A DNA stretch of 64,000 nucleotides from Winogradskyella sp. (GTDB lineage: Bacteria > Bacteroidota > Bacteroidia > Flavobacteriales > Flavobacteriaceae): positions 32,972 through 96,971 of the forward strand of contig PBLD01000002.1 of assembly GCA_002722255.1 (NCBI GenBank), in the 5' to 3' direction. Each line of letters opens with the position of its first letter. The first letter of the stretch is position 1. Below, in pieces: positions 19,607 through 58,583 of this stretch. Below the pieces are notes generated by a model that was not told the DNA's origin, searched no databases, and was given only the letters and a program-made list of their open reading frames with translations. A program made the position numbers and the translations under genes.

Positions 19607-19650
19607 CTGACTAAAATCATACTAAATTTAGATAATGATTATTAAATTTA
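19607..19650 (+). promoter_or_regulatory. Crp/Fnr-box promoter of the universal stress gene at 19655
   Basis: Box CTGAC-TAAA-ATCAT (19607-19620), 22 bases, then -7 element TAAATTTA (19643-19650). The start codon lies five bases after the -7 element, so the mRNA may be leaderless. Confidence 0.65.
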
Positions 19651-19654
19651 GAAT

Positions 19655-20488
19655 ATGAGAAATATATTATTACTTACCGACTTTTCAGATAATTCTATCA
19701 ATGCCATACACTATGCTTTAAAACTATTTAGTAGGTCTATGGTTAATTTTTTTGTATTACACGTAGAGTCTACTAATACGTTTTTAACTGATGATTTAAT
19801 GGCTGCTGGAAGTAAAAGTATCTACGATACACTTGTTAAAAAGCCGAAAAGTAGATTAAAAAAAGTCGTTTCAGATTTAGAGAAAGCATCTAAACATGAA
19901 AATTTCAATTTTGAGACGCTTATAGATCATGATGTGTTTGCAGATTCTGTAAATCAAGTTGTAGCATCAAAAGAGATTGACTTAATTGTTATGGGAACCA
20001 ATGGAGTTACAGGTGCTAAAGAAGTGCTATTTGGAAGTAATACAATCAACGTCATACGAAAGGTAACTTGTCCAACTCTGGTAATTCCAGAAGACTTTAC
20101 ATACACATCACCAAAGGAGATACTTTTACCACTGGATATTAATGATTCAATAGGTGGAGAGGCTTTTTCAAATTTGTTGACATTTGCGAATACATATTCT
20201 GAAAAATTACACCTTCTGAGAATAAAGCCCAATAGCGAAGTTTCACCAGAGGAACATAGCGATACTGAGCAGGTTCAAAAATATCTAAAGGATATCAACT
20301 ATGAATATCATGTTGTAAGTAATACACCAATGGATCATGTGGTTAATTCTTATACCCAAACGCATAGTATAGAATTAATAGCTTTATTAGTTCAAAAAGA
20401 AAGTCTTTTTGAGAGATTCTTTACCGGTTCATCAACAACAGAGATTAGTAAGAAACTTAAAGTACCATTACTGGTGTTTCATGTATGA
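19655..20488 (+). CDS. Tandem-domain universal stress protein (UspA family)
   Basis: The 277-residue protein has two Usp domains. The first (about 1-145) begins RNILLLTDFSDNS and ends with the ATP-binding loop GTNGVTGAKEVLFGSNT and CPTLVIP. The second (about 150-277) lacks the G-x2-G-x9-G(S/T) loop and probably serves dimerisation. ATP-binding Usps of this type help cells survive low oxygen, starvation or redox stress. This is the only one of the seven paralogues in the window on the plus strand; it has its own Crp/Fnr-box promoter. Confidence 0.88.
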   Translation: MRNILLLTDFSDNSINAIHYALKLFSRSMVNFFVLHVESTNTFLTDDLMAAGSKSIYDTLVKKPKSRLKKVVSDLEKASKHENFNFETLIDHDVFADSVNQVVASKEIDLIVMGTNGVTGAKEVLFGSNTINVIRKVTCPTLVIPEDFTYTSPKEILLPLDINDSIGGEAFSNLLTFANTYSEKLHLLRIKPNSEVSPEEHSDTEQVQKYLKDINYEYHVVSNTPMDHVVNSYTQTHSIELIALLVQKESLFERFFTGSSTTEISKKLKVPLLVFHV

Positions 20489-24488: not shown

Positions 24489-24504
24489 TTTTATTCATTT
24501 AAAA

Positions 24505-24539
24505 AAAGCTGCCAAAACATAATTGGCTCTGGCAGCTTT
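24505..24539 (-). terminator. Intrinsic terminator of the universal-stress operon
   Basis: AAAGCTGCCA/TGGCAGCTTT, a 10-base stem; on the minus strand it is followed by a run of T. It lies about 65 bases after the stop at 24603 and just before the ATP-cone gene start. Confidence 0.75.
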
Positions 24540-24602
24540 ACTGACTAATAGATTTGTTGAAAAAATTCAACTAAAAATGGCTTTTAACCCAATGTCAAAG
24601 CC

Positions 24603-25499: not shown

Positions 25500-26330
25500 C
25501 TAAGCTGAGGACGGAATTACAAAAAATGGTATTGTAGCATGGAAGCCTATCTTCTTAATTACAGGCTCATTAATTATGCTTTCTATAAAACTGTGCTCAT
25601 AGTTTATCATTACTAAAATGTCTATGTTAAGCTCTTCTATAAAGTCGTTTATTGCATTTTCTTTCTTTGTGTAATCTGGCATCCAATGGAAAGTATGTGG
25701 ATTATCTTCTAAATAAGCTTTTAGCATTGCCAGATTGTAATCTTGCTGGTGACTCAGATTTTTTTCTTCGTTAATATGTAATATTCTAATCTTAGAATCA
25801 TACAGTTTTGATAGGTTTTTTAGAGGAAGCAACTCTTCGCCATAAAATCGATTAAAATCTGTTGGAAATGCAATTTGTTTTGGCTCCTCAAAGTCAAACT
25901 CATGAGGAATTAAGAGAATAGGGCAAGACTTTACATGCTTTATGATTTTTACAGTGTTGCTACCCATAAATATTTCTTTGGCACCAGTAGCTCCTTTGGT
26001 TCCCATTACAATAAGATCAATCTTGTATTTAGTGATAGCCATATCAATGGCATCATCCATCGCATCCACACTGAGTAAGATTTCAAAATTATGATTAAGG
26101 TTGTCGTTTGCTCTTTCTGCCATGTCTTTGAGTTCTAGCAACTCCTGCTTTGCATTATCTGCCATAGATCTCAATAACTTGTTTGAAATGTTAGACATCG
26201 CAGAGGCTTTCATTTTATAAGAATGCAAAAAATAGAAAGTACATTCTTCCTTCTCGTAAAGTTTAAGTGCATAAACGGCTGCACACCAGGCATTATCCGA
26301 AAAATCCGTTGGTAATAGTATTTTTTTCAT
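25500..26330 (-). CDS. Tandem-domain universal stress protein (UspA family)
   Basis: The 276-residue protein begins MKKILLPTDFSDNAWCAAVYAL. I place the start at 26330 because the box and -7 element at 26355-26398 put transcription start near 26349, so an ATG at 26378 would lie upstream of the mRNA. Domain 1 carries GTKGATGAKEIFMGSNTVKI and CPILLIP. Domain 2 is degenerate and ends HSFIESII..ATIPFFVIP, a shared tail among these paralogues. It is the first gene of a two-gene unit with 24603-25457. Confidence 0.87.
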   Translation of the reverse strand: MKKILLPTDFSDNAWCAAVYALKLYEKEECTFYFLHSYKMKASAMSNISNKLLRSMADNAKQELLELKDMAERANDNLNHNFEILLSVDAMDDAIDMAITKYKIDLIVMGTKGATGAKEIFMGSNTVKIIKHVKSCPILLIPHEFDFEEPKQIAFPTDFNRFYGEELLPLKNLSKLYDSKIRILHINEEKNLSHQQDYNLAMLKAYLEDNPHTFHWMPDYTKKENAINDFIEELNIDILVMINYEHSFIESIINEPVIKKIGFHATIPFFVIPSSA

Positions 26331-26354
26331 GGCGAGTAGCTTTAGTCCATTAGC

Positions 26355-26398
26355 AAAAGTTACTGTTAACTTTTGCATTTTGAAATGATAATAATCAG
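26355..26398 (-). promoter_or_regulatory. Crp/Fnr-box promoter of the universal stress pair 25500/24603
   Basis: On the minus strand: box CTGAT-TATT-ATCAT (26385-26398), 22 bases, then TAACTTTT (26355-26362), which continues as TAACTTTTG. It lies between two co-directional usp genes and so provides a second, internal entry point. Confidence 0.68.
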
Positions 26399-26410
26399 TC
26401 TTATTTATAG

Positions 26411-27247
26411 TTATGACGGAATAACCATAAACGGAACATTAAGATGAAAACCTATGTGTTTTATATTGGATTTAAAGAATAGATTTTCAAAAAATGAATG
26501 CTTATTGTTAATCATCACCAACAAGTTGATTCTTGTTTTTATCTGAAATTCTGTAATTGCTTCTGGTATATTTTTATTTTTAATATTGTGGAAAAGATGC
26601 GCAATACCTTTAAACTTTGCTTCAAGTTTTTGTCGGTTGGTTTCTTGTCTTTTAGTTAAAGCTTCACCATAGTGCACATGCATAATATTAACACGAATGT
26701 TATACAGATTTGCAATATCTAAAAGTGGCTGTAAGTGCTGATCTTTAAAATCTATTTCATAGTCTGAAGGGAACAAGAGTTCATGTGGTTTTTCAAAATC
26801 AAAATCACTAGGAATTGCAATTACAGGACATTTAGCATTGTTAAGTACGTGCATGGTGTTAGAACCAAACAAAACTTCTTTAACGCCAGAAGCACCTTTT
26901 GTTCCCATAATTATTAGATCCATTACATTGCCTTCATACAATTCGCTTATTTCACCAGTAAGTGTATTAAATGATGAAATGGTTGTAAATTGATGGTTAG
27001 GGTTAGGGAACTCAGCTTCAATTTTTTCTACTAATTCTTGTAGCCTTTTTTTACTAGTCTCTTTAATGGTTTCCATAAGTTGAAACTGTGGTTCGCTAGA
27101 TTGCATAAATTCAACCTGATACACAATTGGAGTATATGTGTTTAGTAAAATGAAATTACATTTTACATTTTTATATAGTTGTAATGCGTATGTAATGGCA
27201 TTCCATGCATTATCTGAAAAATCCGTTGGTAATAGTATTTTTTTCAT
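26411..27247 (-). CDS. Tandem-domain universal stress protein (UspA family)
   Basis: A 278-residue two-domain Usp, MKKILLPTDFSDNAWNAITYALQLY at the start and GTKGASGVKEVLFGSNTMHVL, CPVIAIP closing domain 1. Domain 2 ends INNKHSFFENLFFKSN..HIGFHLNVPFMVIP, very similar to the protein at 33403. It starts 19 bases after the preceding usp gene with no promoter between, so both form one unit from the box at 28169. Confidence 0.88.
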   Translation of the reverse strand: MKKILLPTDFSDNAWNAITYALQLYKNVKCNFILLNTYTPIVYQVEFMQSSEPQFQLMETIKETSKKRLQELVEKIEAEFPNPNHQFTTISSFNTLTGEISELYEGNVMDLIIMGTKGASGVKEVLFGSNTMHVLNNAKCPVIAIPSDFDFEKPHELLFPSDYEIDFKDQHLQPLLDIANLYNIRVNIMHVHYGEALTKRQETNRQKLEAKFKGIAHLFHNIKNKNIPEAITEFQIKTRINLLVMINNKHSFFENLFFKSNIKHIGFHLNVPFMVIPS

Positions 27248-27266
27248 GACGATAGATTTTAAAGAA

Positions 27267-28115
27267 TTAATAGCGTCTAATGTTTTGCAGTGCCAAAAAC
27301 GGAATATCTATCCTCAGCGTTATTTCATCTAGTTTAGACTGAAAGAATATGTTTTCAAAAAACGAGTGTCTTGTATTAACCATAACAAGCATATCTACAT
27401 TATTTTCATCTATGTAATTACAAATAGCGTCTGTAATGCTCGAATCTTTAACAGTCTTAAAATTAATCTCGTTTTTGCAAAGTTCATCCTTAACAAAGCT
27501 TTGGTTATTCTGTTGTCTCATGGATAGTTTGTCACTGCTAGAAACATACAGCATATCTATAACAGCTCTGTATGGTGCAGCTAGCTCACATAGTAATTTC
27601 AGTTCTCTTCTCTTATAAGGAATAAGGTAATTGGTAGGGAAGAGGATATGTCTTGGCTGAATACCTACATAATGTTCTGGTATGGCTAAAACAGGGCACT
27701 GTACATATCTAAGAACCTGTAGCGTATGGCTTCCAAAAGTTAATTTTTTATCGTTAGTATTGCCACGAGTTCCCATAACGATAATGTCTATATTTTCTTC
27801 GTCTACAATCTTGTCTGCTTCATCTACCAACATGTTATTTGCAGAAATAATTGAATAGCTATGTCTTGGGTTTGGAGAAATTTCCTTTATGTCTTTTAAG
27901 ACCTTATCAAGATTAGATTGCGATTTGTCTGCAATGCGTTTTGTAACTTTTACAAGAGTTTCCTCCTTGATGAGTTCTTCGTCTTCAAAAATTTCATCTT
28001 GGTAAGCATGCATAATAAAAAACCTGCTTTTGTCGTATTTAAACAACTCAGAAGCGTATTTTAATGCATTCATTGCATTGGCGGAAAAGTCTGTTGGGAT
28101 TAGAATGTTTCTCAT
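27267..28115 (-). CDS. Tandem-domain universal stress protein (UspA family)
   Basis: A 282-residue two-domain Usp starting RNILIPTDFSANAMNALKYASELF. The ATP loop of domain 1 is GTRGNTNDKKLTFGSHTLQV, followed by CPVLAIP; the middle residues differ from its paralogues but the G-x2-G-x9-GS frame is changed only at the second Gly (N). Nucleotide binding may be weaker. It heads the unit with 26411-27247 and has a perfect Crp/Fnr box (28169-28182). Confidence 0.87.
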   Translation of the reverse strand: MRNILIPTDFSANAMNALKYASELFKYDKSRFFIMHAYQDEIFEDEELIKEETLVKVTKRIADKSQSNLDKVLKDIKEISPNPRHSYSIISANNMLVDEADKIVDEENIDIIVMGTRGNTNDKKLTFGSHTLQVLRYVQCPVLAIPEHYVGIQPRHILFPTNYLIPYKRRELKLLCELAAPYRAVIDMLYVSSSDKLSMRQQNNQSFVKDELCKNEINFKTVKDSSITDAICNYIDENNVDMLVMVNTRHSFFENIFFQSKLDEITLRIDIPFLALQNIRRY

Positions 28116-28138
28116 GACAAATTCATTTTATAGCTTAT

Positions 28139-28182
28139 TAAAGCTAAGGCATTTAGCATCATTTTACAATGATATTTATCAT
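28139..28182 (-). promoter_or_regulatory. Crp/Fnr-box promoter of universal stress gene 27267
   Basis: On the minus strand: perfect dyad ATGAT-AAAT-ATCAT (28169-28182), 22 bases, then TAGCTTTA (28139-28146). A TTG follows the box directly at the -33 position. Confidence 0.7.
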
Positions 28183-28218
28183 ACAATTCAACTAGGAAAT
28201 TTTAATGAGAGAAAAGGT

Positions 28219-28420
28219 TAAAAAGAAACAGGAAGCATTAACTTCCTGTTTCCGTAAAGTGTTTAATTCTATAATTCACCTCTTATTTTGAAAACCCTAA
28301 ATTCCTCTGACTACAAAGAATTATAATGGATCGCTTTTTTATTCAACCAAAGCATTAAACACTTTTTTACATTCATAACCCTTAATAAAATTATTAAGGA
28401 TTTTTATGCTTTTATCCTAA
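28219..28420 (-). ncRNA. Candidate small RNA 2 (about 200 nt) of the stress island
   Basis: The promoter at 28426-28469 predicts a start near 28420. Transcription would run to the terminator whose stem is 28225-28235 with 28242-28252. Within the transcript two nested inverted repeats occur: AAAGTGTTTAAT/ATTAAACACTTT (28256-28267 with 28354-28365) and, inside, TATAATTC/GAATTATA (28270-28277 with 28318-28325). The RNA would thus fold into a long closed arm followed directly by the terminator hairpin. A 21-codon ORF (28311-28376) starts inside but overlaps the stems, so I favour an RNA product. I do not recognise a known RNA family. Confidence 0.5.
28221..28252 (-). terminator. Intrinsic terminator of small RNA 2
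   Basis: GAAACAGGAAG/CTTCCTGTTTC, a perfect 11-base stem with a six-base loop (28225-28252), followed on the minus strand by TTTTTAACC. Confidence 0.75.
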
Positions 28421-28425
28421 CATAG

Positions 28426-28469
28426 TAAATGTAATTATTGAGTCTGTTTTAAAAAATGAGGAATGTCAG
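28426..28469 (-). promoter_or_regulatory. Crp/Fnr-box promoter of small RNA 2
   Basis: On the minus strand: box CTGAC-ATTC-CTCAT (28456-28469), 22 bases, then TACATTTA (28426-28433). One half-site position is C instead of A or G; spacing is exact. Confidence 0.58.
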
Positions 28470-28499
28470 TTTTGGTATTAAATTATCAGAATGTATGTC

Positions 28500-28580
28500 T
28501 CAAAAAAAGCCAGAGATTGCTCTGGCTTTTTTCGTGATTAATAGCACATGATATTAAATTTATGTAGGCCTTAATATCAT
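28500..28580 (-). ncRNA. Candidate small RNA 1 (about 80 nt) of the stress island
   Basis: The promoter at 28585-28628 predicts a start near 28580, and a strong terminator ends the transcript at about 28501. The RNA would consist of a 5' hairpin starting at its first bases (ATGATATTAA/TTAATATCAT, 28548-28557 with 28571-28580, 13-base loop), a linker of about 15 bases and the terminator hairpin. No ORF fits. This is a typical size and plan for a trans-acting bacterial sRNA. Its partner mRNAs cannot be read here. Confidence 0.52.
28502..28532 (-). terminator. Intrinsic terminator of small RNA 1 (near-symmetrical)
   Basis: AGCCAGAG-ATTG-CTCTGGCT (28508-28527) flanked by A and T runs that extend the stem; on the minus strand seven T follow. 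It could also end read-through from the membrane-protein gene at 28635. Confidence 0.78.
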
Positions 28581-28584
28581 ATGT

Positions 28585-28628
28585 TAAACATAATTAAGCT
28601 TTTGGTTTTAAAAAATGATAATTATCAA
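28585..28628 (-). promoter_or_regulatory. Crp/Fnr-box promoter of small RNA 1
   Basis: On the minus strand: box TTGAT-AATT-ATCAT (28615-28628), 22 bases, then TATGTTTA (28585-28592). The box lies just after the stop codon of the gene at 28635. Confidence 0.62.
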
Positions 28629-28634
28629 TTTTGG

Positions 28635-29021
28635 CTAATATGGAATTATTTGATAAACGATATTTAATAAAAACAGACCAATTAAAAATAGCAACATATA
28701 AATAAGCTGAACCATTTTAACGTTGGTTAATATTAACCACGACACTGTTTTATTTGGAAAAATAAACAGTGCCAAACCAGAAAATAGAAAAGACCATCCT
28801 ATTAAAGTAATAACCAGTTTGTAATTTAATTCCCAATAGTTATGTGAAATTACGGTAGTTAGTCCTAGCGTAATACAAATAAATGCTGCCAGAATTAAAA
28901 ACTTTTCATCTTTAAGATTGTTAAAAATCTGTTTTATGCGTTTTGGATTAAAGCTTAGTATAAAAAAGAATATGATAAGATACCAGCCCCAAAATTTTGT
29001 AAAGAATAGTGAATTTTCCAT
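28635..29021 (-). CDS. Small integral membrane protein, unknown function
   Basis: The 128-residue protein has four predicted membrane helices: around 10-25 (GWYLIIFFFILSFN), 40-58 (FLILAAFICITLGLTTVI), 68-88 (LVITLIGWSFLFSGLALFIF) and 100-125 (MVQLIYMLLFLIGLFLLNIVY). No charged motif or known family stands out. It begins eight bases after the usp gene at 29029 and shares its promoter at 29899. It may be a membrane partner of that Usp or part of a low-oxygen response. Confidence 0.6.
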   Translation of the reverse strand: MENSLFFTKFWGWYLIIFFFILSFNPKRIKQIFNNLKDEKFLILAAFICITLGLTTVISHNYWELNYKLVITLIGWSFLFSGLALFIFPNKTVSWLILTNVKMVQLIYMLLFLIGLFLLNIVYQIIPY

Positions 29022-29028
29022 GGTTTTA

Positions 29029-29877
29029 TTAATTTTTTTCGTGTAATACTAATAATGGTTTGTCTGTGTGATAGCTCACCTTTTCAACTCTGCTGTGAAA
29101 GAATATTTGTTGAAAATAGTTAAGGCTTTTTGCTACCATACATATAAGATCTATATCCCTACTTTCTACAAAACATTGCACAGCATCTTCTACTTTTTTG
29201 TTTGTGAGGTAATGAAAACTGCTTTTAATATCTGTAAAGTAGTCTTTTAATAATGTTATGTTCTGATTTAACTCTCGCTCTAAATCCCTTTTGTTTTTAT
29301 TAATATGAAGTATTCTAAGAAATGCTTTAAAGTGCTCTACGATATCTAATAATGGATGTAAAATATCTAGATTGTAGGTGAGGTTTAGATCTGAAGGAAA
29401 AGCAATCTCTTTTGGAGGAACAAATTCTGCATTCTCTGGCACTGCAAGTGTTGTACATTTAACTTTGGTAATAACATCTGCAGTGTTGGTACCAAGAATG
29501 ATTTCGTTTAAACCAGAGGCACCTTTTGTACCCATAACAATAAAATCTATTTCTTTTTCTTTTATAATTCTTCGAATAGAATCTATAAAAAAACCAGTTT
29601 CTGTGAGTACAAAGAACTTGTGCTTGTCTTTATTTGGTTTTAACTTAGAAATACGCTTTACAAAACTGCGTAACTTTTGTTTTGCTGGTTTAATGTATGT
29701 GTTTTCGAGATAGTAAGAGTCTATGGTTAAAGCCTCGTCTTGTGGAATAAAATTATTTAAACTGTTAACATGTAACAGGTAAAAACCACATTCAATAGCA
29801 TTAAAAAAATGAATGGCATACTTAATAGCATTCCATGAGTTTTCAGAAAAATCCGTTGGTAAAAGCACATTTTTCAT
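29029..29877 (-). CDS. Tandem-domain universal stress protein (UspA family)
   Basis: A 282-residue two-domain Usp starting KNVLLPTDFSENSWNAIKYAIHFF. Domain 1 ends with GTKGASGLNEIILGTNTADVI and CTTLAVP; GTNT replaces the usual GSNT. Domain 2 is degenerate and ends HSRVEKVSYHTDKPLLVLHE. It heads a two-gene unit with a small membrane protein and has its own box/-7 promoter. Confidence 0.87.
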   Translation of the reverse strand: MKNVLLPTDFSENSWNAIKYAIHFFNAIECGFYLLHVNSLNNFIPQDEALTIDSYYLENTYIKPAKQKLRSFVKRISKLKPNKDKHKFFVLTETGFFIDSIRRIIKEKEIDFIVMGTKGASGLNEIILGTNTADVITKVKCTTLAVPENAEFVPPKEIAFPSDLNLTYNLDILHPLLDIVEHFKAFLRILHINKNKRDLERELNQNITLLKDYFTDIKSSFHYLTNKKVEDAVQCFVESRDIDLICMVAKSLNYFQQIFFHSRVEKVSYHTDKPLLVLHEKN

Positions 29878-29898
29878 GATATTAATAATTTAATATCT

Positions 29899-29942
29899 TA
29901 AAATTAGGTGCTAAAAGCGGTTTATAAAATGACTAGAATCAT
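29899..29942 (-). promoter_or_regulatory. Crp/Fnr-box promoter of universal stress gene 29029
   Basis: On the minus strand: box ATGAT-TCTA-GTCAT (29929-29942), 22 bases, then TAATTTTA (29899-29906). It lies in the gap after the receiver-Crp gene. Confidence 0.68.
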
Positions 29943-29957
29943 TTTAGATAATTATGG

Positions 29958-31007
29958 TTACTTAATTTGCTTAAGACCATCAATATCTAAAACGACAATG
30001 TTTCTTCCTTCGGATTTAATCAGTCCTTGATTTTTAAAATTGGTTAATGTTCTGATAAAAGTTTCTGTTGCGATACCAGCAACACTTGCCAAGTCATTTC
30101 TGGAGATTTTTATTGGATCATTAGGTCTTCGATTAATCTTTTCGGCAAATTGAAGAATAGTATTGGCAGTTTTCTTGTTTACTGAACTATATGCCATTTC
30201 TAATAGCTGGTCTTTAAAATGTGATAAATCGTCTGTTAGGTGGTCTATTAGTGCTATGGCCAGTTTATTGTTATTCTTTAAAATTTCGGTTAATTGTAAT
30301 ATTGATAAGCCAACTAATGTGGTCTTCTTTATTGCTGTGGCAGTTTCTTTATGTGGTAAGTTGTGCGTAAAAGATGTGTAGCCAAACAGATCGTCTTCTT
30401 TGTAAAGACTTGTTGCTAATTCTTTGCCTTTAGTATCTAACTTATGGCATTTTATAGCACCTTTGGTAATGAGATAAATAAAATTAGAATGGTCGCCTTC
30501 TCTATAAATGATATCTCCCTTGTTAAACATAAACTCATTGCCATAATCGTCAAAGAAGTTCTTTAAGTCATTGAGGTTGATTAATTCATCCTTCTCAGAG
30601 TAATTATGAACGTTATCTTGTTCTTTCTCCTTAAGGATACTGGCTTTAGCTAATCTACTTTTAATGGCACTTACCAACTCGTCTTCAGTAAAAGGTTTAG
30701 TGATGTAGTCATCTGCACCAAGATTCATACCTTTTCTAACATCTTGATGTTCGGTTTTTGCAGATAAAAAGATAAAAGGTATATGTTTTGTCTTGTTGTT
30801 TTTGGTTACCTCATTTAAGACTTCATAACCATCTAGTTCTGGCATCATTATATCGCAAATTATAATATCTGGTATATTAATATTTATAGATTTTAAGCCA
30901 AGTTTTCCATTTGGCGCAGTCAGAACTTCAAAGTCTGAAAGCTCCAAAAGTTCGGCTATATTTTCTCTTAAAACCGTATCGTCCTCTATGAGTAAAACCT
31001 TAGTCAT
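29958..31007 (-). CDS. Receiver-Crp/Fnr fusion transcription factor
   Basis: The 349-residue protein joins a response-regulator receiver (1-120; acidic EDD, phospho-acceptor Asp52 in IIICDIMMPELDG, Lys in TKPF) to a cyclic-nucleotide-binding-like barrel (about 150-265, FMFNKGDIIYREGDHSNFIYLITKGAIK) and a Crp-type winged HTH (about 280-349, ISRNDLASVAGIATETFIRTLTNFKNQGLI). There are no N-terminal Fe-S cysteines as in Fnr, so control should come from phosphorylation or a barrel ligand. In the recognition helix (ATETFIRTL) the Glu and Arg that read TGA are kept and the Ser of Fnr is Ile. Its start overlaps the kinase gene by eight bases. It is the best candidate for the factor that binds the twelve boxes in this window. 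Confidence 0.9.
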   Translation of the reverse strand: MTKVLLIEDDTVLRENIAELLELSDFEVLTAPNGKLGLKSININIPDIIICDIMMPELDGYEVLNEVTKNNKTKHIPFIFLSAKTEHQDVRKGMNLGADDYITKPFTEDELVSAIKSRLAKASILKEKEQDNVHNYSEKDELINLNDLKNFFDDYGNEFMFNKGDIIYREGDHSNFIYLITKGAIKCHKLDTKGKELATSLYKEDDLFGYTSFTHNLPHKETATAIKKTTLVGLSILQLTEILKNNNKLAIALIDHLTDDLSHFKDQLLEMAYSSVNKKTANTILQFAEKINRRPNDPIKISRNDLASVAGIATETFIRTLTNFKNQGLIKSEGRNIVVLDIDGLKQIK

Positions 31008-32895
31008 GCTTTGCCTTATTAGGTATTTTTAAAGTAACTAATGTTCCTTTGTTTTCTTTACTTTCAATTTTTATAGTGCCGTTTAAATTTTCGAGATGTG
31101 TTTTTACAATATTGAGGCCAATTCCGGTACCTTGTAAATTAAGTACATTTTCAGCCCGATAATAACGAGTGAAAATATTCTCCACTTCCTTTTTTGGGAT
31201 ACCAATGCCATGGTCTTCAATCTCAAAAAAAGTGTCGTTTTTATCTTGATGAATTCTAATATCTATGGTAGAATTCTTACCTGAATATTTTATAGCATTC
31301 TGTAGAATATTAGATAAAATAATTTCTATAATTCTCTCATCTTGATACATTGCTATGTTGTCAATATCCTTAGGGTAATTGATGCGTTGTCCTTCTTTTA
31401 AAAGCATGTTGCAGTTGTAAACCACTTCATTTATAACCTTACTTAATCTAAAATCTGTAAACGTGTAATTAAAAGTGCCAGTTTCTAATCTTTCAATAGA
31501 TAAAAAATCGTTTAAAATGGTGTTGAGATAGTTTACTTTATCCTTTAAAATGGCTAAATGCTTATCACGTTTTGGCTGTTCTTCAGTTAGTCTGTATTTT
31601 TCTAACAGCATCAACGAGGTTGCTATGCCACTGAGAGGTGTTTTAAATTCATGTGATACTAGAGACAAGAACTTTGTTTTTAGTTCATTAAGTTCTTTTT
31701 CTTTGCTCAGAGCTTCTTGTAGTTGCAGTGTTCTTTCTTGTACTGTTTGTTCAAGTTTTATGGTGTAATTTTTTTGTTCGGTAATATCTACTATTATAGC
31801 CACAAACACTTTTTTATCTTTTAATAATGAAAGCTGTAAGTGCACCATTACAGGATAAGAGGATCCATCTTTTCTAATATGAATAGTTTCAAAGTCTACT
31901 TGTTCTTCTTGCTTTTTTAGAAGTTTATTAATGTAATTTTCTCTAAAAGTTTCGAGGTCTATGTTAGCTTTTAAATCTAAAGGTGTCATAGAAGTTAGCT
32001 CATCTAATGAGTAGCCAATGTTTTTTAAAGCACCTCTATTGGCATTTATAAACTTGAGTGTTTTGGCATCAAAAACATATATTTCATTTAAAGACTCGTT
32101 AAAAATTGTAGCCAAATGGTTTTTTTCTTCTTGAGCTCTAACACGTTCTGTAACATCATTTTGAACACCAATAAAATGTGTTACCACACCTCTTCTGTTG
32201 GTTATTGGAGTAATGTATAAATCGTTGTAAAATATGGTACCATCTTTTTTGTAATTTCTAAGAGTTGCTAAACAACTTTCACCATTTTTAACGGCTTTTC
32301 TAATTTTTGAAATCTCTTTTTGGTCTCTATCATCACCTTGAAGAAATCTGCAGTTTTTGTTTAAAATTTCTTTTTTAGTAAAGCCAGTTAGCCTTTCAAA
32401 AGCTGCATTGTGGTATATGATGGGATTGTCTGGTTTTAAGGCATCTGTTATTACAATTCCATTGTTAGCAGAATCTAACGCTTTTGTTCTAAGCATAAAA
32501 TTAAACTCGCTCTCTTTCTGTTTAGAAATATCTCTAATTAATGCCATAACAAAAGTTTTGTTATAGATGTTAAAAGGGTTAAGTTCAACTTCAATTGGTA
32601 TTATATCACCTATCTTTTTTAGACCATAAACATCTGCTGTTCTTCCCATTTTAGTGCGTTTATAATCTTCCATAAATTGGTCAACATTTTTCTTGTGAGA
32701 TTTATGGTAGTTAGAAGGAATAAGTATGTTAATGGATTTACCTTTAAGCTCAGATTTTTTGTATCCAAAAATATGCTCGGCCATGCCATTAGCTTCCATT
32801 ATATGTTGTTTTTCATCAACTATAATAACGGCTTCAGAGATAGCTTCTAAAAGAATGTTGAATATTTCTTGGTCTTGTTTAATCATACCAAACAA
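31000..32895 (-). CDS. Three-PAS sensor histidine kinase, possible oxygen sensor
   Basis: The 631-residue soluble kinase has PAS domains at about 10-130, 135-255 and 260-385, a coiled segment, HisKA with phospho-acceptor His near 415 (FLSLVSHEFKTPLSG) and HATPase (NILQNAIKYSG, DHGIGIP, GTGIGLNIV). The first PAS has PSNYHKSHKKNVDQF; His67 falls where FixL has its haem-binding His in a similar YRxxH segment. The FixL distal Arg is not kept. An oxygen- or redox-sensing role is therefore suggested, not shown. It is the cognate kinase of the overlapping receiver-Crp protein and has the same type of promoter. Confidence 0.88.
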   Translation of the reverse strand: MFGMIKQDQEIFNILLEAISEAVIIVDEKQHIMEANGMAEHIFGYKKSELKGKSINILIPSNYHKSHKKNVDQFMEDYKRTKMGRTADVYGLKKIGDIIPIEVELNPFNIYNKTFVMALIRDISKQKESEFNFMLRTKALDSANNGIVITDALKPDNPIIYHNAAFERLTGFTKKEILNKNCRFLQGDDRDQKEISKIRKAVKNGESCLATLRNYKKDGTIFYNDLYITPITNRRGVVTHFIGVQNDVTERVRAQEEKNHLATIFNESLNEIYVFDAKTLKFINANRGALKNIGYSLDELTSMTPLDLKANIDLETFRENYINKLLKKQEEQVDFETIHIRKDGSSYPVMVHLQLSLLKDKKVFVAIIVDITEQKNYTIKLEQTVQERTLQLQEALSKEKELNELKTKFLSLVSHEFKTPLSGIATSLMLLEKYRLTEEQPKRDKHLAILKDKVNYLNTILNDFLSIERLETGTFNYTFTDFRLSKVINEVVYNCNMLLKEGQRINYPKDIDNIAMYQDERIIEIILSNILQNAIKYSGKNSTIDIRIHQDKNDTFFEIEDHGIGIPKKEVENIFTRYYRAENVLNLQGTGIGLNIVKTHLENLNGTIKIESKENKGTLVTLKIPNKAKHD

Positions 32896-37432: not shown

Positions 37433-37476
37433 CAAATTTAGACCATTGAAATCAGATAAATGGTGATTTTTGTCAT
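37433..37476 (-). promoter_or_regulatory. Crp/Fnr-box promoter of fhs
   Basis: On the minus strand: box ATGAC-AAAA-ATCAC (37463-37476), 22 bases, then a perfect -7 element TAAATTTG (37433-37440). Transcription would start near 37428, 23 bases before the chosen ATG. Confidence 0.65.
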
Positions 37477-56493: not shown

Positions 56494-56577
56494 TTCTTAA
56501 ATTGTACCTTAATCGAATAAAAGTTAGCTTACAGTTAAAAAATTTTATATTGATAATGCTATTAATCAATTTTCTCA

Positions 56578-56632
56578 AAAAAGCATCAGTTATACTATTT
56601 ACAGCAAGTAGCATATCTCTGATGCTTTTTTC
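56578..56632. terminator. Terminator-like hairpin in the leader of the TPR kinase gene
   Basis: AAAAAAGCATCAG/CTGATGCTTTTTT (56578-56590 with 56620-56632), 13 paired bases around a 29-base loop. It ends ten bases before the kinase ATG at 56643 and has T runs on both strands. It may be an attenuator of the kinase gene or the end of a short leader RNA. Confidence 0.5.
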
Positions 56633-56642
56633 TTTAAATGGT

Positions 56643-58583
56643 ATGAAGAAAAACCTACTCATCTCTTTGAGTATTTTAATGGGCATATCTGCTTATTCTC
56701 AAAATCTAGATAGTTTACTTACAGTTGCACGCAGTACAAAAAATGATTCTGTAAAAATCAGAATGTATAATAAAATTGCCTTTGGTTACATATTTAATGA
56801 TACAGATAAGGCACTTAAAGTACTTAAAGAAGGAAAAGAATCTGCCAAGGCTGCAGGTTTTAATTTCGGTCTAACAGAGTTAGTAAATACTCATGGTATA
56901 TATATGGATGTTACTGGTAAATCGGACTCTGCAGCTTATTATTTTGAAAAGGCACTAATGATGAGTAGAGATTTTGGGTTTAAAAACATTGAATCCATGT
57001 GTATCAATAACCTTGGGATGTTTAATTGGAATCGCGGAAATTATAATGAAGCATTAGATTATTTTTTTCAATCTTTAAAAATGGATGAAGCTCAACAAAG
57101 TGAAAAATCCACGTCCACATCATTGAATAATATTGGACTTATTTACCAAGAAATGAATCTTAATGAGAAAGCTCTTGAATATCATAAAAAAGCATTAAAA
57201 GTCAGAGAAAAGTATAAACTTGAAAATGAGCAAATAGCATCACATAACAACATTGGTATAAACTTAAAGGATTTAGGTAGAATAGATGAAGCGATATTGT
57301 CTTATAAAAAAGGATTAGCGTTGGCCAAAAAACTCGATAACCGAATAGAGTACTATAAGATTTTAGATAATCTGGCTAATGCATACTACGATAAAGGGAA
57401 TAAAGATTTAGCATTAGAAACATATTTAGAAGCCTTAAAAAAGAAAGAAAATTATAATGGTGATGAGCGTGGAATGCTTTCTACGTACAATAATATAGCA
57501 ACACTTTATAACGAAAAAAGTTTACCAAAAATAGCCAAACATTACGCAGAAGAAGGTTTTAATTTGGTAAAGAAATATCCAGAAATAGAATTGGTTTCCG
57601 CAGATTTGTACTTAACACTCGCAGAAAGCAATTACATGCTTGGAAACTACGACCAAGCCAGACAGCAAAAGCGAACTTATATAAAATTAAAAGACTCAAT
57701 ATTCTCAGAAAAAAATGCCCAAAAAATAGCAGATTTAGAAGTAAAATATGAAACTGAAAAAAAGGAAAAAGAGATTCTTATACAACGTGCAGAATTAGCA
57801 GAGCAAGATTTGGTCATTCAGAAGCGAAACTATCAATTATACGGATTAGCCTTGTTAACATTAATACTGGGCTTAGTAGGTTTCCTGTTCTACAACCAAC
57901 AGAAGCTAAAAAATCATCAGCTACAAAAGGAAAATGAGCTTAAAGACGCTTTAATAAAAATTGAAACCCAAAATAAGCTACAAGAGCAACGCTTAAGAAT
58001 TAGTAGAGATTTACACGATAATATAGGTGCACAATTAACTTTTATTATTTCGTCTATAGATAATCTAAAATATGGTTTTGACATTAAAGATGAAAATCTA
58101 ACTCATAAACTTGAGACGATAAGCGATTTTACATCAGGCACTATTTATGAATTAAGAGATACCATCTGGGCAATGAATAAAAGTGAAATTACTTTTGAAG
58201 ACCTTCAAACCAGAATTTCAAACTATATTGACAAGGCACATTTGTATGATGCTAATATTCAGTTTTCATTCAACGTAGATAGCAGTGTAGATACAAGTAA
58301 AACTTTCACTTCCGTTGAGGGTATGAATATTCATCGTGTTATACAAGAAGCCATACACAATAGCTTAAAATATGCTGAAGCGTCTCAGATAAAAGTTGAA
58401 GTATATAAAGAAGTTTCTAATTTGGTATTTAAAATTTATGATAATGGAAAAGGCTTTGATTTAGCCTCTGTGAAAAGAGGTAATGGCCTCACCAATATGG
58501 AAAAACGAATTGCAAATATTGGTGGAGAAATTAAAATCAACACAAAAGAAAATCAAGGAACCCAAATAATTGTTATCGTATAA
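56643..58583 (+). CDS. TPR-repeat sensor histidine kinase (HisKA_3 type)
   Basis: The start at 56643 gives a normal signal peptide (LLISLSILMGISAYSQ); an ATG at 56502 would run through a terminator-like hairpin. The 646-residue protein has about seven TPR repeats in the periplasm (35-390), a coiled coil, one membrane helix (YGLALLTLILGLVGFLFY, about 445) and a cytoplasmic kinase with RLRISRDLHDNIGAQLTFII (phospho-His) and an HATPase domain (GMNIHRVIQEAIHNSLKYA, DNGKGFD, GNGLTNM). It should pair with the LuxR-type regulator at 60562. Confidence 0.88.
   Translation: MKKNLLISLSILMGISAYSQNLDSLLTVARSTKNDSVKIRMYNKIAFGYIFNDTDKALKVLKEGKESAKAAGFNFGLTELVNTHGIYMDVTGKSDSAAYYFEKALMMSRDFGFKNIESMCINNLGMFNWNRGNYNEALDYFFQSLKMDEAQQSEKSTSTSLNNIGLIYQEMNLNEKALEYHKKALKVREKYKLENEQIASHNNIGINLKDLGRIDEAILSYKKGLALAKKLDNRIEYYKILDNLANAYYDKGNKDLALETYLEALKKKENYNGDERGMLSTYNNIATLYNEKSLPKIAKHYAEEGFNLVKKYPEIELVSADLYLTLAESNYMLGNYDQARQQKRTYIKLKDSIFSEKNAQKIADLEVKYETEKKEKEILIQRAELAEQDLVIQKRNYQLYGLALLTLILGLVGFLFYNQQKLKNHQLQKENELKDALIKIETQNKLQEQRLRISRDLHDNIGAQLTFIISSIDNLKYGFDIKDENLTHKLETISDFTSGTIYELRDTIWAMNKSEITFEDLQTRISNYIDKAHLYDANIQFSFNVDSSVDTSKTFTSVEGMNIHRVIQEAIHNSLKYAEASQIKVEVYKEVSNLVFKIYDNGKGFDLASVKRGNGLTNMEKRIANIGGEIKINTKENQGTQIIVIV

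Follow-up and report, generated by a model that had tools for sequence, protein, structure and literature searches.

Promoter-like boxes and terminators in a spacer that carries no protein gene raise the question of what is transcribed there, under which control and to what end. The window analysed here is a stretch of 64,000 nucleotides from Winogradskyella sp., and the spacer at 28116-28634 is flanked by two minus-strand genes, one for a small membrane protein (28635-29021) and one of the usp type (27267-28115). The original prediction described, on the minus strand, a box with a -7 element and then a terminator, this order twice over, followed by the promoter of the next usp gene, and it placed a hairpin at the 5' end of the first transcript. 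This layout is borne out: the spacer holds two promoter-plus-terminator units on the minus strand, with predicted starts at 28580 and 28421, which are kept in relatives, the usp box at 28181 follows, and folding shows both terminator hairpins as well as the 5' hairpin of the first RNA. The statement that no protein gene stands behind these promoters also holds, as no minus-strand ORF of at least 40 aa was found in the gap 28116-28634. A simple scan of 26000-31000 returned 0 terminators against 1.9 expected and 24 sigma-70-type promoters against 26.1 expected, which is no excess; we think that the scan misses these elements because A-U pairs absorb the U runs and because a sigma-70-type promoter model is unsuited to this phylum. 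The folds, together with what the relatives show, were trusted over the simple scan. The features are as follows.

28616-28627, minus strand: Fnr/Crp-like box of sRNA1, TGATAATTATCA, centred at -41.5 (box/-7 offset comparison and window count)
28585-28592, minus strand: -7 element of sRNA1, TATGTTTA (offset comparison; TAnnTTTG corresponds to -12 to -5 in PMC9723704)
28500-28580, minus strand: sRNA1, predicted transcript of about 80 nt (fold, match of model R1 at 28501-28579, covariation)
28535-28546, minus strand: conserved unpaired core TGCTATTAATCA, complementary to sRNA X (alignment, unpaired probability, pairing)
28501-28533, minus strand: terminator of sRNA1 (fold)
28457-28468, minus strand: box of sRNA2, TGACATTCCTCA, one half-site of which is degenerate in the window (box/-7 offset comparison)
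28426-28433, minus strand: -7 element of sRNA2, TACATTTA (box/-7 offset comparison)
28219-28421, minus strand: sRNA2, predicted transcript of about 200 nt (fold, match of model R2 at 28221-28366, covariation)
28354-28364, minus strand: 5' arm of the closing stem of sRNA2, AAGTGTTTAAT (alignment and covariation)
28257-28267, minus strand: 3' arm of the closing stem of sRNA2, ATTAAACACTT (alignment and covariation)
28220-28252, minus strand: terminator of sRNA2, AAACAGGAAG...CTTCCTGTTT, both arms conserved (pattern search)
28170-28181, minus strand: box of the next gene, usp 27267-28115, at the same spacing (offset comparison and window count)
29958-31007, minus strand: response regulator carrying Crp-type domains, a candidate for recognising the boxes (Pfam domain matches)
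31000-32895, minus strand: PAS histidine kinase adjoining the response regulator (Pfam domain matches)

The spacing of the control elements is uniform: among 34 Fnr/Crp-like boxes from 12 spacers, the best -7 element lies at one identical offset in 33 (seven offsets tested), and the sRNA1 boxes of three loci held out from defining this spacing (L099, L100, L105) show the same spacing in 3/3. Within the window, the combination of a box and TAnnTTT at this offset was counted 9 times; over 100 simulated sequences the average count was 0.02 and the highest 1. Each other offset from 20 to 60 occurs at most once. Five of the 9 occurrences precede usp genes, and the other four stand before sRNA1, the gene of the histidine kinase, that of a c-type cytochrome and a formate-tetrahydrofolate ligase-like gene; the box of sRNA2 fails the strict pattern of this count, so that sRNA2 is not among the 9, and an Hsp20-like gene in the window is preceded by a weaker -7 element. 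The kinase and four of the Usp proteins were named through Pfam matches, while usp 19655 and the formate-tetrahydrofolate ligase-like, c-type cytochrome and Hsp20-like genes are presumed to be such. In Flavobacterium psychrophilum, TAnnTTTG sits at -12 to -5 according to PMC9723704, and the centre of the box is therefore placed at -41.5; a box near -41.5 of a TAnnTTTG-type promoter is the arrangement of a class II Crp/Fnr-type regulon. Judging from this architecture, the sRNA genes probably form part of a Crp/Fnr-type regulon that also takes in usp genes, the neighbouring histidine kinase and the c-type cytochrome gene, with the regulator and oxygen as the signal both putative.

Three boxes elsewhere in the window deserve separate mention. 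One at 1319-1330, with regulon spacing, stands before what we take to be a c-type cytochrome gene (787-1266), adjoining a presumably Rrf2-like gene; another at 19608-19655 (plus strand) places the ATG of usp 19655-20488 nearly at the predicted transcript start, possibly giving a leaderless usp mRNA; and a third at 37475 (minus strand), again with regulon spacing, precedes the formate-tetrahydrofolate ligase-like gene, an odd member for a stress regulon.

By Pfam matches, the genes around the spacer code for Usp proteins, for a response regulator (cNMP-binding and Crp-type HTH domains) and for a PAS histidine kinase. Three named loci with genes for relatives of the usp protein all belong to Winogradskyella. 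Twenty such islands were examined, namely 12 in the first comparison plus L099, L100, L279, L282, L283, L105, L088 and L094, and the gene order kinase, regulator, usp, membrane protein, spacer, usp is kept in most of them, the exceptions being L054 without the membrane protein, the incomplete L061 without usp 29029 and L279 with a regulator fragment only, as well as L105, L088 and L094, which are short stretches. Because most islands were found via the RNAs themselves, island counts are not genus frequencies. The spacer aligns over most of its length at 81-85% in three relatives and over its first 135 bases only in a fourth. The further claim of two tandem sRNA genes under one Fnr-type control gains support from the folds, the fixed box spacing and this conservation, and the check set in advance, conservation of hairpins and promoters in relatives, came out in its favour, since R1 and R2 find held-out relatives, the spacing recurs in all three held-out loci and base pairs covary.

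The first RNA, sRNA1, consists of a 5' hairpin, the unpaired core UGCUAUUAAUCA and a 15-pair terminator ending at about 28500. It folds at -33.5 kcal/mol (z -8.3), which 0/200 shuffles matched. The core TGCTATTAATCA is exact in 10 of 12 aligned units from 11 genomes, L051 and the first copy of L052 having altered versions, while the 5' hairpin and the terminator vary. The mean unpaired probability of the core ranges from 0.51 to 0.98 across 15 units, with at least 0.73 in 13. Of the cells in the sRNA1 alignment, 81.7% are paired against 74.2% in shuffles, and changes on both sides of a pair number 23 against 9.8 (0/500), while further pair types are no more frequent than in shuffles (156/500); this covariation, weaker than for sRNA2, is located in the terminator, the 5' hairpin being aligned only in part. 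Model R1 recovers sRNA1 in L099, L100 and L105, relatives outside the model. An sRNA1-like unit is present in 17 of the 20 islands (14 by R1, plus G106, G021 and G008) and was not found in those of G047, G001 and G009; its core is intact in 15/17 units and altered in G051 and G008. A putative promoter of its own, a terminator and a conserved accessible seed, the marks of a trans-acting base-pairing sRNA, are thus combined in sRNA1, with G051 and G008 as exceptions. At E up to 0.01, R1 matches occur in 54/68 genus genomes, in islands or not, a number not usable as a count of sRNA1 because 9 of 12 places read are the 3' end of apparently one small secreted-protein gene (frame checked in L095 only). 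The remaining 3 of the 12 places are sRNA1 units. A box at the right distance accompanies 16 of the best 30 R1 loci, by which the islands of G021 and G008 were recognised and counted in. Another island spacer in the window has a weak R1 match (E 0.003) at 24502-24591 (minus strand), perhaps to the terminator alone.

What, then, could the core pair with? Between serS and a TPR gene, the opposite strand reads the core complement, CATTTATTTTGCTGGT, and a terminator, a conserved predicted transcript that we call sRNA X. Its stem shows base exchanges and its loop is variable, its 5' part and the upstream sequence are conserved, and its seed UGRUUAAUAGCA is complementary to the sRNA1 core. X is present in 54/68 genus genomes (search at up to 3 mismatches) and, across the family, in 113/397 genomes at E up to 0.001 and in 60/397 at E below 1e-6; the TTAATAG core stands in 28 of 30 X loci read, 25 of these outside the genus, and three loci gave no Rfam match to X at E up to 0.5. 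When X without its terminator was set against the first 48 nt of sRNA1, runs of 12-19 contiguous pairs (G-U allowed) were obtained in 10 of 11 genomes tested, the miss being G003, which has two sRNA1 copies: the first, on which the test was done, carries an altered core and the second an intact one. Duplex energies beat single-base shuffles in only part of 12 units (1 to 123/200 as good), which is a weak test because the terminators pair too in that calculation. X was found in 14 of 15 genomes with an intact sRNA1 core. The fifteenth, G021, has the intact core and no X at up to 3 mismatches, and G008 has X together with an island unit in which box, hairpins and terminator are present without the core; these two break strict co-occurrence, so that the pattern of presence and absence is by itself no proof that sRNA1 and X are linked. 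In G051 (86% complete), the core is decayed and X was not found at this search depth.

Conserved complementarity to the seed of another sRNA, the feature by which a sponge is recognised, is found in sRNA1. We consider it probable that the spacer encodes two genuine sRNAs of the Crp/Fnr-type regulon, sRNA1 acting as a sponge for X and sRNA2 being a structured RNA. Upon induction of the regulon, sRNA1 would be made from its box promoter, its unpaired UGCUAUUAAUCA would pair with the UGRUUAAUAGCA seed of X, and X, which itself would pair with mRNA 5' ends, would be withdrawn from the mRNAs bearing the same core there. The computations establish two conserved RNAs, a common promoter architecture, complementarity to X and core sites covarying with the X seed, from which we infer transcription, signal, regulator, direction (sponge rather than target) and effect on mRNAs; a sponge acting on X and an sRNA1 regulated by X would fit the data alike. 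The hairpin-seed-terminator anatomy of sRNA1 is also that of a classic trans-acting regulator, whose core would pair with UGRUUAAUAGCA RNAs (X and some 3' untranslated regions) as its targets, and antisense cores do stand beside terminators in several genomes, for example L141, L155 and L188. We regard such a role as unlikely, however, given that X is more widely distributed (54/68 in the genus, 60/397 in the family at E below 1e-6) than intact-core sRNA1 (15 genus genomes confirmed, weak R1 matches having been read only in part) and that many sense cores in mRNA leaders would be left unexplained.

These sense cores bear directly on the proposed sponge. In the genome of the window, TGCTATTAAYCA has 20 sites against 0 for the reversed control pattern, and in five relatives the corresponding numbers are 19/1, 16/2, 8/2, 12/3 and 10/2, together 65 against 10. 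Reading of 82 of the 85 sites, the 3 omitted being sRNA1 copies read separately, showed a -7 score of at least 5 at 13/82, compared with 101/4100 random positions. The G of GCTATTAAYCA falls exactly at +1 in 11 of these 13, and 8 further sites with a -7 score of 4.5 share the offset with G at +1; the other classes comprise 8 sites followed by a terminator in sense orientation, 20 accompanied by one in antisense (5 of them the X locus), 20 in long reading frames and 21 others. One predicted target of X lies in the window itself.

56557-56568, plus strand: second TGCTATTAATCA in the window, predicted X target (-7 score 4.5, offset 11)

Here the G stands at the predicted +1 of the leader of a TPR histidine kinase (gene 56502-58583), and the same position is occupied in L176 and L116. 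Other putative targets of X, judged by the first residues of their products, are presumably alanine dehydrogenase, fructose bisphosphatase, release factor 3 and an anti-sigma factor.

A natural variation in X permits a closer look at the pairing. The base of X opposite the variable core base is A in 10 genomes and G in 44. Where it is A, there are 9 C-type sites (background) and 106 T-type sites, and where it is G, 157 and 375, counts that include chance sites in reading frames; per genome, this amounts to 0.9 C-type (reversed control 1.4) and 10.6 T-type (0.6) sites with A, and to 3.6 (0.7) and 8.5 (0.3) with G. The asymmetry is as expected from G-C and G-U versus A-U pairing, and site base is associated with X base at a Fisher value of 2.4e-7 with the X locus removed, a statistic that ignores descent. 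By parsimony, the X base changed 6 times, at least 3 of them on supported branches of a serS tree covering 40 of the 54 genomes with X (41 tried, one dropped for length). Moreover, at a homologous 3'UTR site, comparable in 14 of 19 loci (the other 5 are without homologous upstream sequence), ATCA occurs in 3/3 genomes with X base A (G014, G029, G038) and ACCA in 11/11 with X base G, and that the site follows the X base in 14/14 speaks for pairing. Other core sites average 12.0 per genome where X is present and 5.6 where it was not found. Many core sites are promoter-proximal, and if TGCTATTAAYCA were the DNA operator of some transcription factor, whose specificity could differ between species, its occurrence in sRNA1 and X would be incidental. 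This we hold to be quite improbable: the register is fixed, with G at +1 in 11/13 sites of the -7 class; the core also lies in sRNA1 and in a 3'UTR, directly before terminators; T is abundant whatever the X base, whereas C rises above background only with X = G, which fits G-U wobble; and the homologous 3'UTR site tracks X without exception.

Extending the sponge reading, one can tentatively envisage, as a possibility of some substance yet still conjectural, a family-wide network in which X would recognise GCUAUUAAYCA at the first nucleotides of mRNAs, Crp/Fnr-type-induced sponges and 3'UTR decoys would free these mRNAs under stress, and tandem sRNA2 arrays would be induced by the same box; X might guard mRNA 5' ends from decay or expose them.

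Some individual core sites were observed in other settings. At L095:1295-1610 (own genome C1, about 90100), an 86-aa secreted-protein gene has a 3'UTR with core and terminator, a possible 3'UTR decoy; its homologous site is the one that tracks the X base in 14 genomes. In L141, L155, L157, L147, L188, L136 and L170, an antisense core (X-like seed) stands beside opposite-strand terminators, some of them in 3'UTRs, and may mark further X-like RNAs; with antisense cores near other terminators, the network would be wider than one X and one sponge. In L150, L177, L128, L120, L117 and L118, the core is enclosed by an inverted repeat, AGAATAAT...ATTATTCT, and lies in its loop region in six of six genomes read; this possibly forms a structured leader.

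At gathering score, Rfam gave no match at the sRNA1 and sRNA2 loci, either in the window or in seven islands, and a permissive search of the segment yielded 23 matches, all under the family scores (best Thr_leader, 30.7 bits against 55). A literature search, mostly of titles and abstracts, retrieved no paper that we recognised as describing sRNA1, sRNA2, X or a flavobacterial sponge RNA. As kinds, base-pairing sRNAs, sponges and sRNAs driven by Fnr are already known, while the sequences, the host group, the placement of pairing sites at +1 and the tandem structured RNA appear to be new. FnrS is an enterobacterial sRNA whose gene is driven by an Fnr-type box within an Fnr-type regulon; the present genes likewise carry an Fnr-type box in an Fnr-type regulon, but belong to another phylum, differ in sequence and form a tandem pair, one core of which is complementary to another sRNA. 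SroC is an example of a sponge or decoy RNA; sRNA1 resembles it in having an unpaired stretch complementary to the seed of another sRNA and differs in having a predicted regulated promoter of its own in a stress island and in sharing its core with the predicted +1 of mRNAs. For X, the comparison set consists of the FopS sRNAs and GibS of Bacteroides thetaiotaomicron as described in PMC11697453. X shares with FopS the layout of an unpaired 5' seed followed by a terminator, but FopS is reported there to bind near the start codons of SusC mRNAs, whereas X, in this comparison by description, complements mRNA 5' termini and is without an Rfam match at E up to 0.5. Like Rfp18 of Flavobacterium psychrophilum, the one Rfp RNA compared, X is a conserved flavobacterial sRNA predicted to pair with mRNAs; the pairing region of Rfp18 is described in PMC9723704 as a third stem-loop, unlike the single terminator hairpin and unpaired seed of X, a distinction drawn by description only. 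Post-transcriptional control in Bacteroidota beyond the gut genera has been little explored, and the stress island offers two conserved RNA families unmatched in Rfam, together with a control box open to testing and a path to X. If X does pair with the first bases of mRNAs and a regulated sponge titrates it, a concrete seed, targets and simple mutants are at hand.

The second RNA, sRNA2, folds into a longer structure than sRNA1 (z -5.1, 0/200 shuffles as good), with a consensus from 14 units of 10 genomes that comprises a closing stem, a 3x3 internal loop, a second stem, a variable apex and the terminator. In the alignment, 93.1% of cells pair against 84.7% in shuffles, with 35 against 10.4 both-side changes (both 0/500), a covariation score of 0.395 against 0.220 (0/500) and at most 53% paired in slid controls, the structure having been picked from the very alignment on which pairing was scored. 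Model R2 recovers units outside the model (loci L099 and L105; genomes G058 at 8e-16 and G012 at 7e-20); its matches at E up to 1e-4 extend to 20/68 genus genomes, although the weakest may be terminators alone. The terminator pattern occurs in 12/68 genus genomes, with 0 for the reversed control and a single place in the own genome. The loci of three of these 12 (L055-L057) are places without island genes where R2 reaches at most 49 bits on both strands, and they were left out as sRNA2 loci. Among the 20 islands, 15 contain sRNA2, in three copies in G057 and G001 and in two in G003.

Because of its position ahead of usp 27267 in the window, and of the corresponding gene in many relatives, sRNA2 might be taken not for an RNA of its own but for a long 5' leader, or an attenuator, of the usp gene that follows. 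This is hardly credible: between sRNA2 and the usp gene stands a box promoter that belongs to the latter; in G045, sRNA2 is lost while sRNA1 and the usp promoter are kept; and sRNA2 occurs in tandem and, in G001, G028, G032 and G053, as extra copies in 10-kb stretches without usp match. All 7 extra copies have a box and a -7 element upstream, 250-254 nt before the R2 match in six. The third sRNA2 copy of G001 has no strict box within 330 nt, and in G106 the box upstream of sRNA2 is that of sRNA1. In 3 of the 4 genomes with extra copies, what we take to be a PEP-synthase-like gene lies nearby.

A role for sRNA2 as partner of X or sRNA1 was rejected, the longest complementary stretches being 7-11 (G-U allowed) without a common register. 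Its identity with 6S-Flavo (RF01685), which is likewise rod-like, was also rejected, as the model has no match at this locus and the 6S-Flavo RNA is found at a different place in the genome. The long rod, 3x3 internal loop and closing stem might still suggest a second 6S-like RNA that binds RNA polymerase, but this is very doubtful, with the 6S-Flavo RNA scoring 103.8 bits at its own place, 6S families absent from the 23 matches that the permissive Rfam search gave for the segment, and a variable apex. By these comparisons, sRNA2 is a structured, box-associated, multi-copy RNA, and perhaps, as a guess, a ligand for a protein. In L280, L281, L284 and L285, sRNA2-like copies were seen behind variants of the box such as TGACTTGGGTCA, in tandem in L280 and L281, and near those of L280, L284 and L285 lies a gene that we again presume to be PEP-synthase-like.
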